Source: Akkermansiaceae bacterium
Lineage (GTDB): Bacteria; Verrucomicrobiota; Verrucomicrobiia; Verrucomicrobiales; Akkermansiaceae
Direction: 5' to 3'
Length of the DNA stretch: 32,241 nucleotides
Assembly (NCBI GenBank): GCA_903934285.1
Contig: CAIZNN010000091.1
Span: forward strand, 1-32,241
The notes under the pieces were generated by a model. The model saw only the letters and a list, made by a program, of their open reading frames with translations. It made no database searches and was not told the origin of the DNA. The position numbers and the translations under genes are program-made. Positions 27,485-32,180 of this stretch are shown here, one piece after another (position 1 is the stretch's first letter; each line of letters opens with the position of its first letter).

Positions 27485-27711
27485 TTGGCGAGTTCGCGAA
27501 AGGCGTTGCGATAGCGGTTCATGAGGCTGCCTGCCAGCTCCATTTTCGCCTCAAACCCCGGCCGCTCCGGCGTGATGCGCAGCGAGCCTTCCGGCGCTTC
27601 GGTTAGATAAAGCACGTCCCCCTCGCTCACTTTGAGCGTTTGCAGGGCCTCCTTGGACAGCACGATGCCGAGGGAGTTGCCGATTTTGCGGACCTTGGTT
27701 TGGATGGGCAT
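27481..27711 (-). CDS. AbrB/MazE-type antitoxin
   Basis: The 76-residue protein begins MPIQTKVRKIGNSLGIVL, the swapped-hairpin AbrB/SpoVT/MazE DNA-binding signature, followed by SKEALQTLKVSEGDVLYL. The C-terminal half (about 48-76) should bind and neutralise the toxin. It is the first gene of a two-gene operon with the Doc toxin. Antitoxins of this fold usually repress their own promoter; an imperfect palindrome GGCTTG-TC-AAGCC near 27737-27749, just upstream, is a candidate operator. P1 Doc is paired with Phd, a different fold, so this is a hybrid module of a kind seen in many bacteria. Confidence 0.88.
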   Translation of the reverse strand: MPIQTKVRKIGNSLGIVLSKEALQTLKVSEGDVLYLTEAPEGSLRITPERPGFEAKMELAGSLMNRYRNAFRELAK

Positions 27712-27814: not shown

Positions 27815-27895
27815 GCGGCCCCGCCGGTGCGGGTGGAGAGAGACTTTTTCCACCGTTCGGCTTTTCCTTACCCACAACCTGATCCTAACACCACG

Positions 27896-30805
27896 ATGGC
27901 CACCAAGAAACCGGCAGTCAAAGCCACTGCCAAGAAAAGCGCTCCGCCAGCCGCCAAGTCGGCAGCCAAGAAATCCGCAGCCAAGAAAAGCGCAACCAAG
28001 CAAAGCGCTCCGCCAGCTGCCAAGAAATCCGCAGCCAGGAAAGCCGCCGCCGCCAAGCCGGTGGCCACGCCCAAAGCGCCCAAAGCGACCAAATACGTAT
28101 ATACCTGGGGCGCGGGCAAGGCTGACGGCAATGGCAGCATGAAACCGCTGCTGGGCGGCAAGGGTGCCAATCTCGCCGAGATGACGCGCATCGCGCTGCC
28201 GGTGCCACCCGGCTTCACCATCACCACCGAGGTGTGCAGCTACTACTACGCCAACAAGCGCAGCTACCCGGCGGTGTTGGATGCCCAAGTCAAGGCCGGC
28301 ATCCACAACATGGAAAAAATCATGGGATACAAATTTGGCGACGCCAAGGGTTTTCCGCTATTGGTGGCGGTGCGCTCCGGGGCACGCGATTCGATGCCCG
28401 GCATGATGGATACCATTCTCAACCTCGGCCTCAACGACGACACCGTCCAGGCCCTGGCCGCCGCCACCAACAACGAGCGCTTTGCCTGGGATTGCTACCG
28501 CCGGTTCATTCAAATGTACGGTGACGTGGTCATGGGCGTGCAAAAGCGCGAAGGTGAGGAACACGAACCGTTTGAAACCATCATCGAGGATTTCAAGCAC
28601 GAGCATCACGGCGAGAACATCATCGATAGCGAACTGTCGGCCGCCAACAACCAAGAGCTGGTCAAGCGGTTCAAGGCGATGGTGAAGAAGCGCACTGGCA
28701 AGTCGTTCCCCACCGATCCATGGGAACAACTCATGGGTGCCTCCGGTGCTGTGTTCGGCTCATGGATGAACGACCGTGCCATCGTCTATCGCCGCAAGTA
28801 CAACATTCCCGCCGAGTGGGGCACCGCCGTCAACGTGCAAGCCATGGTCTATGGCAACACCGGCGAGACCTCCGGTTCCGGCGTGGCGTTCACCCGCAAT
28901 CCGGCCAACGGCACCAATGAATTCTACGGTGAATTCCTCATCAACGCCCAAGGCGAAGATGTCGTCGCCGGTGTCCGCACTCCCGAGCCGGTGCTCGATT
29001 TGAAAAAGCAGATGCCCAAGTCCTATGCCGAACTGCTCAAGGTGCGCAAGACCCTGGAGCAGCATTTCAAGGATGTGCAAGACGTCGAGTTCACCATTCA
29101 GGAAGGCAAACTCTTCATGTTGCAAACCCGCAATGGCAAACGCACCGCCGCGGCCGCCCTCAAGTTCTCCATGGACATGGTCAAGGAAAAGCTCATCGAC
29201 TGGGAAACCGCCGTGTTGCGCAATCCCGCCGACCAGCTCGACCAGCTCCTCGCCCCGATTTTCGATGTGGTCGAAACCAAGAAAGCCAAGGCGCTGGCCA
29301 AGGGGCTGCCTGCCGGCCCCGGTGCCGCCTCCGGCAAGATCTATTTCAATGCCGAGCGTGCCGTGGTCGCCGAGGATGCCGGTGAAAAGGTGCTGTTGGT
29401 CCGCAACGAAACCTCGCCCGAAGACCTCCGCGGCATGATCGCGGCGGAAGGGATTCTAACCGCCACCGGGGGCGTCTCGTCGCACGCCGCGCTCGTCGCC
29501 CGCCAAATGGGCAAGGTCTGCATCTGCGGCGCCAGCGCCGTGAACATCGACTATGACAAACGCACCGTCACCATCTCCGGCGAAACCTACAAGGAAGGCG
29601 ACTTCCTCAGCATCGATGGCACCAGCGGCATCGTCTATGGCGGCAAACTCAAGACTGCCCCCTCGGAAATTGTCACCGGCCTGCTCCACGGCGACAAGGC
29701 CGCGCAGAAGACCGAGAAATACAAGAACTTCCTCCAGCTCATGCAATGGTGCGCCAAGGCCACCCGCATGCAGGTGCGCACCAATGCCGACGATCCGGAA
29801 CAAACCGCCAACGCCCTGGCCTTCGGCGCCACCGGCATCGGGCTGACCCGCACCGAGCACATGTTCTTCGAGGGTGATCGCATCGATTCGATGCGGGAGA
29901 TGATTCTGGCCACCAACGAAGCTGACCGCCGCAAGGCGCTGGCCAAGCTGCTGCCCTATCAACGTGCCGACTTCACCGGCATTTTCAAGGCGCTCAAGGG
30001 GTATCCGGCCACCATCCGCTTGCTCGATCCGCCGCTCCATGAGTTCCTGCCCCACGCCAAGGAACAACAACTCGATCTATCCAAAAAACTCGGCATCAGC
30101 GTCGAGTCCATCCAACAGCGCGTCGCCCAACTCCACGAGTTCAACCCGATGCTCGGCCACCGCGGCTGCCGCCTCGGCATCGCCTATCCCGAGATCACCG
30201 AAATGCAGGCCCGCGCCATCTTCGAGGCCGCGGCCGATGTCGCCAAACTCAAGATCAAGGTCAAACCCGAAGTGATGGTGCCGCTGGTCGGCTTCAAGAA
30301 GGAACTCGACCTGCAGGTCGACATCATCCATCGCGTCGCCCGCGAGGTCATGGCCGAGAAGAACATCAAGTTCGCCTATCAAGTCGGCACCATGATCGAG
30401 ATCCCGCGCGGTGCCCTCACCGCCGATGAAATCGCCCAGACCGCCGAGTTCTTCAGCTTTGGCACCAACGACCTGACCCAGACCGCGCTGGGCATCAGCC
30501 GTGACGACATGGGCTCGTTCCTGATGCCCTACATCGAAAACGAGGTCTTCAAGAAAAACCCGTTTGCCTCGCTCGACACCACGGGTGTGGGCCAGTTGAT
30601 GGAGATTGCGGTGACCAAGGGCCGCAAGACCCGCCCGGACATCAAGCTCGGCATCTGCGGCGAACACGGTGGCGACCCGGACTCCGTCAAGTTCTGCCAC
30701 AAGCTCGGCCTCGCCTATGTGAGTTGCTCGCCGTACCGCGTCCCGGTCGCCCGCCTCGCCGCCGCCCAGGCCGCCATCGAGGAAAAACGCGCCGCCAAGA
30801 AGTAA
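27896..30805 (+). CDS. ppdK: pyruvate, phosphate dikinase with histone-H1-like N-terminal tail
   Basis: Residues about 65-969 are a complete PPDK, which interconverts pyruvate, ATP and phosphate with phosphoenolpyruvate, AMP and pyrophosphate. The ATP-grasp part starts KYVYTWG and has [12 protein letters not shown]. The phosphohistidine domain has [16 protein letters not shown] (His530), and the PEP/pyruvate barrel ends with ICGEHGGDP (Cys921). Residues 1-64 are an extra tail made of repeats such as [11 protein letters not shown], rich in Lys, Ala, Ser and Pro. It contains an internal 66-bp duplication (AGCGCTCCGCCAGC at 27938 and 28004). PPDK normally starts near KYVY. An in-frame GTG near 28062 could bypass the tail, but it lacks a ribosome binding site. 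A PEP-gluconeogenic or pyrophosphate-linked glycolytic role is inferred from the family. Confidence 0.95.
27938..28017 (+). repeat. internal duplication encoding the H1-like tail of PPDK
   Basis: AGCGCTCCGCCAGC occurs at 27938-27951 and again at 28004-28017, 66 bp (22 codons) apart, within a tract of repeated GCAGCCAAGAAA-type units. The repeats preserve the reading frame and produce the KKSA/APPAAK pattern. Confidence 0.75.
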
Positions 30806-31167: not shown

Positions 31168-32043
31168 CTACTCCACATTCTGCACTTGCTCGCGGATTTT
31201 CTCGAGTTCGGTTTTGGCTTCGACGATGGTCTGGGCGATGGCGGCGTCGTTGGCCTTGGAGCCGATGGTGTTGAACTCGCGGAAAATCTCCTGGCAGAGG
31301 AAGTCGAGGGCGCGGCCCGGCGCGGCGGTGGCGGCCATGTATTCGCGGAACTTGGCGTAATGGGAATTGAGCCGGGTGAGTTCCTCGGTGATGTCACAGC
31401 GGTCCGCAAACAATGCCAACTCTTTGACCACCCGCTCATCGGCCGGATCCAACTCCAGGCCGGCTTCCCGCAAGCGCTTCACTAACAATTCACGCTGGCG
31501 CAGCGGGCGCTCCGCCGCGCCGTGTGCCAGCCGCCGCGTGAGCGCGTCGAGCGTGGCCAGGCGGGCCGCGAAGTCGGCCAGCAGATCGGCGCCCTCGCGG
31601 GTGCGCATGGTGGTGAGTTGGGTGAGCGCGTCGTGGAGTGCCGGTTCGACGGCCGCCCAGGCGGATTCCGCATCGATTTCGCGTGAGCCGACGGCGAGCA
31701 CGCCGGGTTGGCGGAGGAAATCGGCCGCGCATGGCAAGACCGGGCGGCCGAGCAGCGCGCCAAGTTGTGCAAAGGCCGCCTCAAAGGCGCGGGCCAGTGG
31801 CGCATCCACGCGCACGGTGGTGGATTCATCCTGGGCGTGTTCGAGGTTGACGCTCACTTGCACCCGGCCGCGGGAAACGGTGGTTTGCACATGTTTGCGA
31901 ATGCGGCCATCCATCTCCGCCAGTTCGCGCGGCAATTGCACGACCACTTCCGCCTGCTTGCGGTTGACGGTGCTGAGTTCTACCTTTGCGAGCCACACGC
32001 CGGTCACCGCGCTGCCCCTGCCAAAACCTGTCATTGATTGCAT
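31168..32043 (-). CDS. yicC: YicC/YloC-family endoribonuclease
   Basis: The 291-residue protein starts MQSMTGFGRG, the standard YicC beginning, and ends EKIREQVQNVE, the standard YicC end. RELAEMDGRIRKHV, SRGRVQVSV and the C-terminal block containing EELTRLNSHYAKF and GRALDFLCQEIFREFNTIGSKAND are family signatures. YicC is reported to be an endoribonuclease involved in RNA turnover. The start at 32043 was chosen over 32061 because the family begins at this Met. YicC often precedes gmk, but here it is followed by the heptad repeat and convergent ppdK. Confidence 0.94.
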   Translation of the reverse strand: MQSMTGFGRGSAVTGVWLAKVELSTVNRKQAEVVVQLPRELAEMDGRIRKHVQTTVSRGRVQVSVNLEHAQDESTTVRVDAPLARAFEAAFAQLGALLGRPVLPCAADFLRQPGVLAVGSREIDAESAWAAVEPALHDALTQLTTMRTREGADLLADFAARLATLDALTRRLAHGAAERPLRQRELLVKRLREAGLELDPADERVVKELALFADRCDITEELTRLNSHYAKFREYMAATAAPGRALDFLCQEIFREFNTIGSKANDAAIAQTIVEAKTELEKIREQVQNVE

Positions 32044-32180
32044 GGGCCAAGCGTGGCTCATTCCCGCCCACCCGCCAAGCCAAACCCATCGCCGCAGCCA
32101 GTTAGCCCAAGTTTCTTATCATGAGGCTGTAGGCCTTGATTTTGCAGGGATTCGCTTCGAAAGGCACTACAAAGTCGGTT

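Follow-up and report, generated by a model that had tools for sequence, protein, structure and literature searches.

Why would an enzyme of central carbon metabolism begin with a histone-like tail? This question is raised by the pyruvate phosphate dikinase (PPDK) gene of the window, i.e. the whole 32,241-nucleotide stretch analysed here, which is contig C91 of the 4.8-Mb genome of an Akkermansiaceae bacterium. The ATG at 27896 starts a translated frame of 969 residues (27896..30805, forward strand, stop included), the first 64 of which (27896..28087, forward strand) consist mainly of Lys, Ala, Ser, Thr, and Pro, carry a net charge of +18, and precede a complete PPDK. We lean towards the view that this histone H1-like tail is a polycationic tether, which would anchor the enzyme to a polyanion, with nucleic acid the likeliest, and would be kept by selection for its charge and composition. 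Tails of this sort are familiar, and it is the protein bearing it that is unexpected: bacteria have Lys/Ala/Pro histone-like tails on proteins that organize DNA or granules. If such a tail is retained on an enzyme of central carbon metabolism throughout a large group of bacteria, it would tie metabolism directly, and in a testable way, to the nucleoid (or to polyphosphate or RNA).

A Lys/Ala-rich tail precedes a complete PPDK

The NCBIfam model TIGR01828 spans residues 66–961 with a score of 1272.8 bits, well within family membership (curated cut-off, 843.45), and bears out the in-frame fusion described in the original prediction. Translation likewise confirmed its 64-residue Lys/Ala/Ser/Pro tail of H1-like composition, while the interval it had proposed (27896–28090) does contain the tail but also takes in residue 65. 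Sequence, charge count, comparison within the genus, and the confidence of the predicted structure together delimit the tail to residues 1–64. The relatives of the protein place the window in Verrucomicrobiota, and over its full length the best named match is from an Akkermansiaceae metagenome-assembled genome (MAG; L036).

Structural comparison of the predicted model revealed the same enzyme and fold as in the solved PPDKs of Clostridium symbiosum (1kbl, the best Foldseek match, E 8.8e-92), plant chloroplasts (1vbg and 5jvj), and Trypanosoma brucei (2x0s). At most seven residues precede the core match in the C. symbiosum and plant chains, which leaves no room for a tail, though the plant constructs were perhaps trimmed; the 2x0s N-terminus lay outside this comparison of pre-core residues. 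The catalytic His530 of the swivelling domain is invariant across 41 aligned PPDK rows. The catalytic motif of this domain is given as TSH in the literature (PMC9009071); at residues 528–530 of the window protein (29477–29485), as in 41/41 aligned PPDKs, Ser-Ser-His stands instead of Thr-Ser-His.

In an AlphaFold2 model built with 41 sequences, residues 1–62 displayed a predicted local distance difference test (pLDDT) score below 50, while the core was confidently modeled (mean 83.0). Such very low values are as expected for disorder, and the tail is probably disordered. As a Lys/Ala/Pro-rich stretch, predicted to be disordered, at one end of a folded protein, it resembles the PAKK/KAAK tails reported on HupB, Ku, and topoisomerase I in Actinobacteria, where loss of the HupB tail weakens DNA binding (PMC5676037). 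The HupB, TopA, and Ku tails are C-terminal and sit on DNA-acting proteins, whereas PPDK is a metabolic enzyme and its tail here is N-terminal.

The resemblance to H1 C-termini and chlamydial Hc proteins noted in the original prediction does not extend to membership of the H1/Hc2 families, as the scores fall far below the curated cut-offs (PF07382, 12.9 versus 40; NF038053, 13.8 versus 80; NF038052, 10.7 versus 135). The likeness to Hc2 and bacterial H1-like proteins lies in composition and in repeat-length variation, Hc2 varying in size by Lys-rich pentamers (PMC2848022), whereas the tail here is fused to an enzyme. The internal 66-bp duplication, which had been taken to show that the tail is expanding, reduces to a 29-nt block (27930..27958 and 27996..28024, forward strand, 93% identity between copies), with 38/66 bases identical across the full 66 nt, and does not support that claim. 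A 15-bp tandem repeat (27962..28008, forward strand; 3.1 copies, 87% matches) is the clearer periodicity. The tails of close relatives range from 33 to 67 residues (L007–L011, L015, L016, and L019). Tail length is thus labile, and expansion is a plausible direction of change from these sequences.

The start codon of the tail

To count as tailed, an N-terminus had to precede the core by at least 15 residues with a charge of at least +5. Our genus sample comprised the PPDKs matched in 50 of 60 other genomes together with the window's own gene. All 51 carry an N-terminal tail of 15–67 residues and a charge of +5 to +19 (median, 32 residues and +11).

The original prediction had named two results that would refute it, a PPDK that begins near residue 56–65 and a tail absent from all near relatives; the genus sample gave neither. 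A start in the former region would leave the tail untranslated, and the window tail does hold an in-frame GTG (residue 56). In 25/51 genus members, however, the tail ATG is the sole ATG, GTG, or TTG before the core, and the tail is constrained at the codon level (see below), such that a mis-called start is scarcely credible; the candidate start near residue 56–65 was rejected on the genus comparison. Since the tail ATG is the only such codon in these genes and the first in-frame one in 30/51, and since a stop lies at most 10 codons upstream of the tail in 18/51, translation must start at the tail in many genes of the genus. As far as sequence can say, the start codon of the tail is correct. 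Such N-termini are real, and annotation should not trim them.

The leader immediately 5' of the window ATG (27874..27895, forward strand) lacks a Shine-Dalgarno-like 4-mer, as do all genus leaders: AGGA, GGAG, GAGG, or AAGG was found at −22 to −5 in 0/51, and A and C dominate the last 22 nt of the leader (A 0.42, C 0.36, G 0.09, T 0.13). The codons that follow are A-rich, with AAA or AAG at codon 4 in 62/62 distinct tails beginning M[AP]TK, at codon 5 in 53/62, and at codon 6 in 52/62. Together, these features might point to an expression device in which an A/C-rich leader without Shine-Dalgarno and A-rich first codons raise initiation while the peptide itself is idle. Such a device could account for the first codons at best. 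Tails that reach 67 residues lie beyond it, as do the long C-terminal tails described below, and it leaves the absence of Asp and Glu unexplained; we therefore regard it as improbable.

Distribution among relatives

Beyond the genus, the N-terminal tail was present in all nine PPDKs of family f9, 8/11 of f2, 5/10 of f3, and 3/4 of f5 and f6 combined, and in none of the 12 of family f4; further families of the same class (e.g. L280, L283, and L301–L306) lie outside these counts. Among other classes of the phylum, most sampled members are without a tail, which was found in 2/35 readable PPDKs (36 genomes read, about one per genus, from 72 with a match). Six named Planctomycetota records are also tailed (L094, L096, L098, L102, L111, and L115; charge +6 to +13), while Zavarzinella of the same phylum (L074) is without a tail. 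Three PPDKs whose frames run to the contig end (L047, L090, and L097) were excluded when the tails were first tabulated. Since it recurs in other Verrucomicrobiota families and in some Planctomycetota, the tail is not a local accident; it is widespread, yet readily lost or gained.

Genome G006 holds a second, diverged PPDK copy (L156, contig C130; 74% in the N-terminal part), which also bears a basic N-terminal tail. MAG records titled Klebsiella pneumoniae (L103), Akkermansia muciniphila (L041), Acidobacteria (L064), and Pseudomonadales (L114) contain PPDKs found among the verrucomicrobial ones, which may reflect mistaken titles or foreign contigs.

Composition is conserved more than sequence

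Taken together, the 138 distinct tails that are 15 or more residues long (3833 codons) contain 1243 Lys and 120 Arg, against only 24 Glu and 11 Asp, with the Lys codons AAA and AAG mixed. The K+R fraction stays at 0.345 (s.d. 0.068) while G+C content at third positions (GC3) spans 0.36–0.98. Correlations with GC3, uncorrected for relatedness, were weak for Arg (−0.26), Ala (+0.23), and Asp plus Glu (−0.26) and marginal for Lys (−0.16, p 0.057). At Lys-consensus columns of the 62 distinct M[AP]TK tails, the 85 non-Lys residues include 42 Ala, 13 Gln, 10 Thr, 8 Pro, and 3 Arg. Neither Asp nor Glu occurs among the 85, even though a single transition converts a Lys codon into one for Glu; some of the Ala replacements will be register shifts. 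The ratio of nonsynonymous to synonymous differences (pN/pS) in the tail ranged from 0.24, a value biased downward because the 67 equal-length pairs compared were those with at least 60% amino-acid identity, to 0.40 for codons 2–14, with corresponding core values of 0.09 and 0.21. The tail is constrained, more loosely than the enzyme, and it is composition that is conserved, not the exact sequence.

Arg-rich tails occur in L086–L089 and L095, and charge is therefore favoured over lysine as such. These tails also bear on the idea that the N-terminus is a handle for lysine modification, where acetylation or attachment of a ubiquitin-like tag (Pup and UBact being systems of this kind) would control turnover or activity. 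The tail is indeed Lys-dense and predicted to be exposed, and PF03618, the family to which PPDK regulators usually belong, gave no match in the window's own genome, so that another form of control is conceivable. With the Arg-rich tails pointing to charge and not lysine, such a handle seems very unlikely.

Could the tail instead be a nearly neutral low-complexity expansion, as the original prediction had offered as one alternative, in which slippage adds and removes Lys/Ala repeats at a permissive terminus and selection acts only against harmful (acidic or hydrophobic) variants? The variation in length (15–67 residues within one genus) fits this idea, as do the 15-bp repeats, the repeated loss or gain on the tree, and a pN/pS relaxed relative to the core. 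It fits neither the absence of acidic replacements nor the retention of the tail in 51/51 genus PPDKs, nor a K+R fraction that holds steady across the range of GC3. Moreover, such runs are rare elsewhere in the sampled sequence. Within 403 kb of the window's own genome (371 kb of stretches plus the window), they were found in two other open reading frames of at least 60 residues, both on contigs chosen by a prior pattern match. A single 400-kb stretch from a complete genome of the same genus, selected to include PPDK, had them in no proteins other than PPDK and one RRM protein. The tail in PPDK exceeds chance and does not reflect a general slippage habit, and we judge neutral expansion to be decidedly unlikely. 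A protein search of the own genome for further copies of the same tail returned nothing better than E 0.3 beyond PPDK.

C-terminal tails and candidate nested genes in family f4

The window PPDK ends in a short extension of 11 residues with a net charge of +2 (30770..30802, forward strand), and the same end bears a long tail in family f4. There, the N-terminal tails are short (11–17 residues), and a C-terminal tail with a charge of +9 to +35 was found in all 10 PPDKs whose C-terminus was read, of which L370 includes a masked or unread stretch. This family suggested a trade-off between the two ends, which was rejected, as N- and C-terminal charges showed no correlation over 111 PPDK rows (rho −0.01, p 0.88). 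These rows are partly non-independent, some genomes being present twice (identical tails in L062 and L377/L014), and L347 was dropped from them because its N-terminus (L284) was unreadable by script. In 85 of the 111, one end or the other, or both, reached a charge of +5 or more.

In nine f4 genomes and the named record L037 (L037, L357, L358, and L365–L371), the H1-like C-terminal tail starts at an in-frame ATG inside the 3' end of the PPDK gene. The 30 nt before this ATG are rich in A (0.54) and C (0.30), holding 2–7 G+T where 150 control windows from 3 loci average 15.2, and an SD-like 4-mer precedes it in 8/10. Third positions of the seven codons after it agree by 93% on average, yet only 2/7 are identical in all ten, and the core control of 75% comes from 3 loci against 10. 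Since the internal ATG looks like a translation start, it probably begins a nested H1-like gene, and the finding thus points to possible nested H1-like genes.

A comparable arrangement was observed in a BlaI-type repressor (PF03965 in L195; C248:12550–13377 in the own genome), which continues in frame into a long H1-like Lys/Ala C-terminus. This tail begins at a Met with an A/C-rich upstream stretch in 5/5 loci (L195, L227, L229, L247, and L258) and is perhaps also a nested H1-like gene.

A proposed tether on nucleic acid or on polyphosphate

As a polycationic, probably disordered extension, selected for charge and low-complexity composition and not for exact sequence, the tail would be a non-specific electrostatic tether, working as PAKK/KAAK tails do on HupB, TopA, and Ku. 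PPDK would then be held on a polyanion, most likely nucleic acid in the form of nucleoid DNA or of RNA/ribosomes. We infer that the tail binds a polyanion, chiefly nucleic acid, and thereby localizes or regulates the enzyme. The original prediction, in which the tail could bind DNA, RNA, or polyphosphate, is supported insofar as it names polyanion binding as a possibility.

The preference for nucleic acid rests on the company that the tail keeps. Across six genus genomes, the motif KKxAxKK gave 63 matches, while the control, the same pattern reversed, gave 5. We inspected the frame of each of the 63 and set aside six frames shorter than 60 residues, internal matches (L232, L243, L250, and L264), and chance-like ones (L253 and L270). 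Carriers with an identified family were Rho, the BlaI-type repressor, TopA, L17, L22, DksA-like zinc-finger proteins, Ku, an SNF2 helicase, a LacI regulator, and PPDK; Pfam was run on one representative of most carriers and on two of the DksA-like proteins, and other copies were recognized by eye. In this one-motif scan of six genomes, PPDK is the only clear metabolic enzyme, matched at one end in five of them (N-terminal in the own genome and L128; C-terminal in L384, L235, and L204). Nucleic acid is favoured as the polyanion because the remaining identified carriers all have to do with nucleic acid, transcription, or the ribosome. TopA and Ku of the window's genus bear Lys/Ala ends, as their actinobacterial counterparts do.

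Among these carriers, Ku is L273 (G009:C11), the SNF2 helicase is L233 (G018:C4), and the LacI regulator is L265 (G049:C1), each with a Lys/Ala-rich end of this kind. The small proteins L176, L246, L255, and L266 start with MGQQSNK(I/V)IKR(R/K)RR, followed by a Lys/Ala stretch and an acidic end; these MGQQSNK-type proteins, of which L246 had no Pfam match at E 1e-5, are without an assigned family, as are L237, L242, L262, L269, and L271.

The main rival to nucleic acid is polyphosphate, in that the tail would dock PPDK on polyphosphate granules near phosphate and pyrophosphate (PPi) chemistry. PPDK makes or uses PPi, and the own genome encodes polyphosphate kinase PPK1 (PF02503), which was found in 44/45 genomes searched. 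Precedent comes from Pseudomonas, where AlgP, with an H1-like KPAA tail, localizes to polyphosphate granules and its tail is thought to help tether it there (PMC9239181). What the window tail shares with AlgP and PhaF, which belong to polyphosphate and polyhydroxyalkanoate (PHA) granules, respectively, is an H1-like Lys/Ala/Pro make-up and a presumed role as a tether. Their KPAA repeats are, however, C-terminal and on proteins other than metabolic enzymes, whereas the window tail is of the AAKKSA type, without any KPAA unit or tandem KPAA repeat in residues 1–64. PPK1 is equally present in tail-less genomes (8/8 searched in genus g21) and does not track the tail, such that its occurrence neither supports nor excludes a polyphosphate tether. 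With the identified carriers also pointing elsewhere, docking on polyphosphate appears unlikely.

Several observations weigh against a tether kept by selection, whether on nucleic acid or another polyanion. Genus g21, presumably Akkermansia, is without an N-terminal tail in 13/13 PPDKs (12 readable by script, and L284 read by eye as MKLVYHFG) and without a C-terminal one in the 7/7 read. On a core tree of 41 rows, the N-terminal tail label needs at least seven changes and is no more clustered than shuffled labels (115/500 as low). Tails evolve faster than the core, the charges at the two ends are unrelated overall, and 26/111 rows have a charge below +5 at both ends. As for the carrier census, it rests on one motif and misses tails (e.g. 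that of the G018 PPDK, L012), the runs are short in several carriers (SNF2, LacI, and TopA), and a protein kinase (L256) ends in seven such residues.

What purpose might a tether on nucleic acid serve? Pyruvate kinase PykA of Bacillus subtilis, also a PEP/pyruvate enzyme (PEP, phosphoenolpyruvate), acts at DNA to influence replication and has a PEPut domain with homology to a PPDK domain (PMC9009071 and PMC10143966). PykA is recruited by DnaE on primed DNA and not through a basic tail, and among the literature matches listed no PykA-like role for PPDK is reported. PykA thus suggests, by analogy only, a possible purpose for the tail. A wider scheme, which we put forward tentatively and hold to be doubtful, is that PPDK is tethered to nucleic acid in much of Verrucomicrobiota and would link the chromosome, at the level of replication or transcription, to PEP/pyruvate and ATP/AMP/PPi status in a PykA-like manner, with the H1-like module moving between termini and family f4 probably also making a free histone-like protein from the internal start. 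A Lys-rich PPDK tail is not described in the titles or abstract beginnings of the open-access matches listed, a scope that leaves most subscription papers outside.

We also considered whether the tail accompanies PPDK as the sole PEP-to-pyruvate enzyme, a candidate that was rejected. Pyruvate kinase (PF00224) was found in 39/45 genomes, and the association runs in the opposite direction, with no match in 1/29 tailed genomes (G006) versus 5/16 tail-less ones (G103, G166, and G202 of g21, G144, and G162). This association is weak, uncorrected for kinship, and owes three of its five tail-less cases to one genus; it left our weighing of the readings unchanged.

Genomic neighbourhood

Upstream of PPDK and divergent from it, a small frame on the reverse strand (about 27485–27711) resembles an AbrB/MazE-like antitoxin by eye and adjoins a gene for a Fic/Doc-type protein (PF02661; 27098–27484, reverse strand), with which it likely forms a toxin-antitoxin pair, judging from the sequences. 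Downstream of PPDK lies a convergent gene for a YicC-like endoribonuclease (31168–32061, reverse strand).

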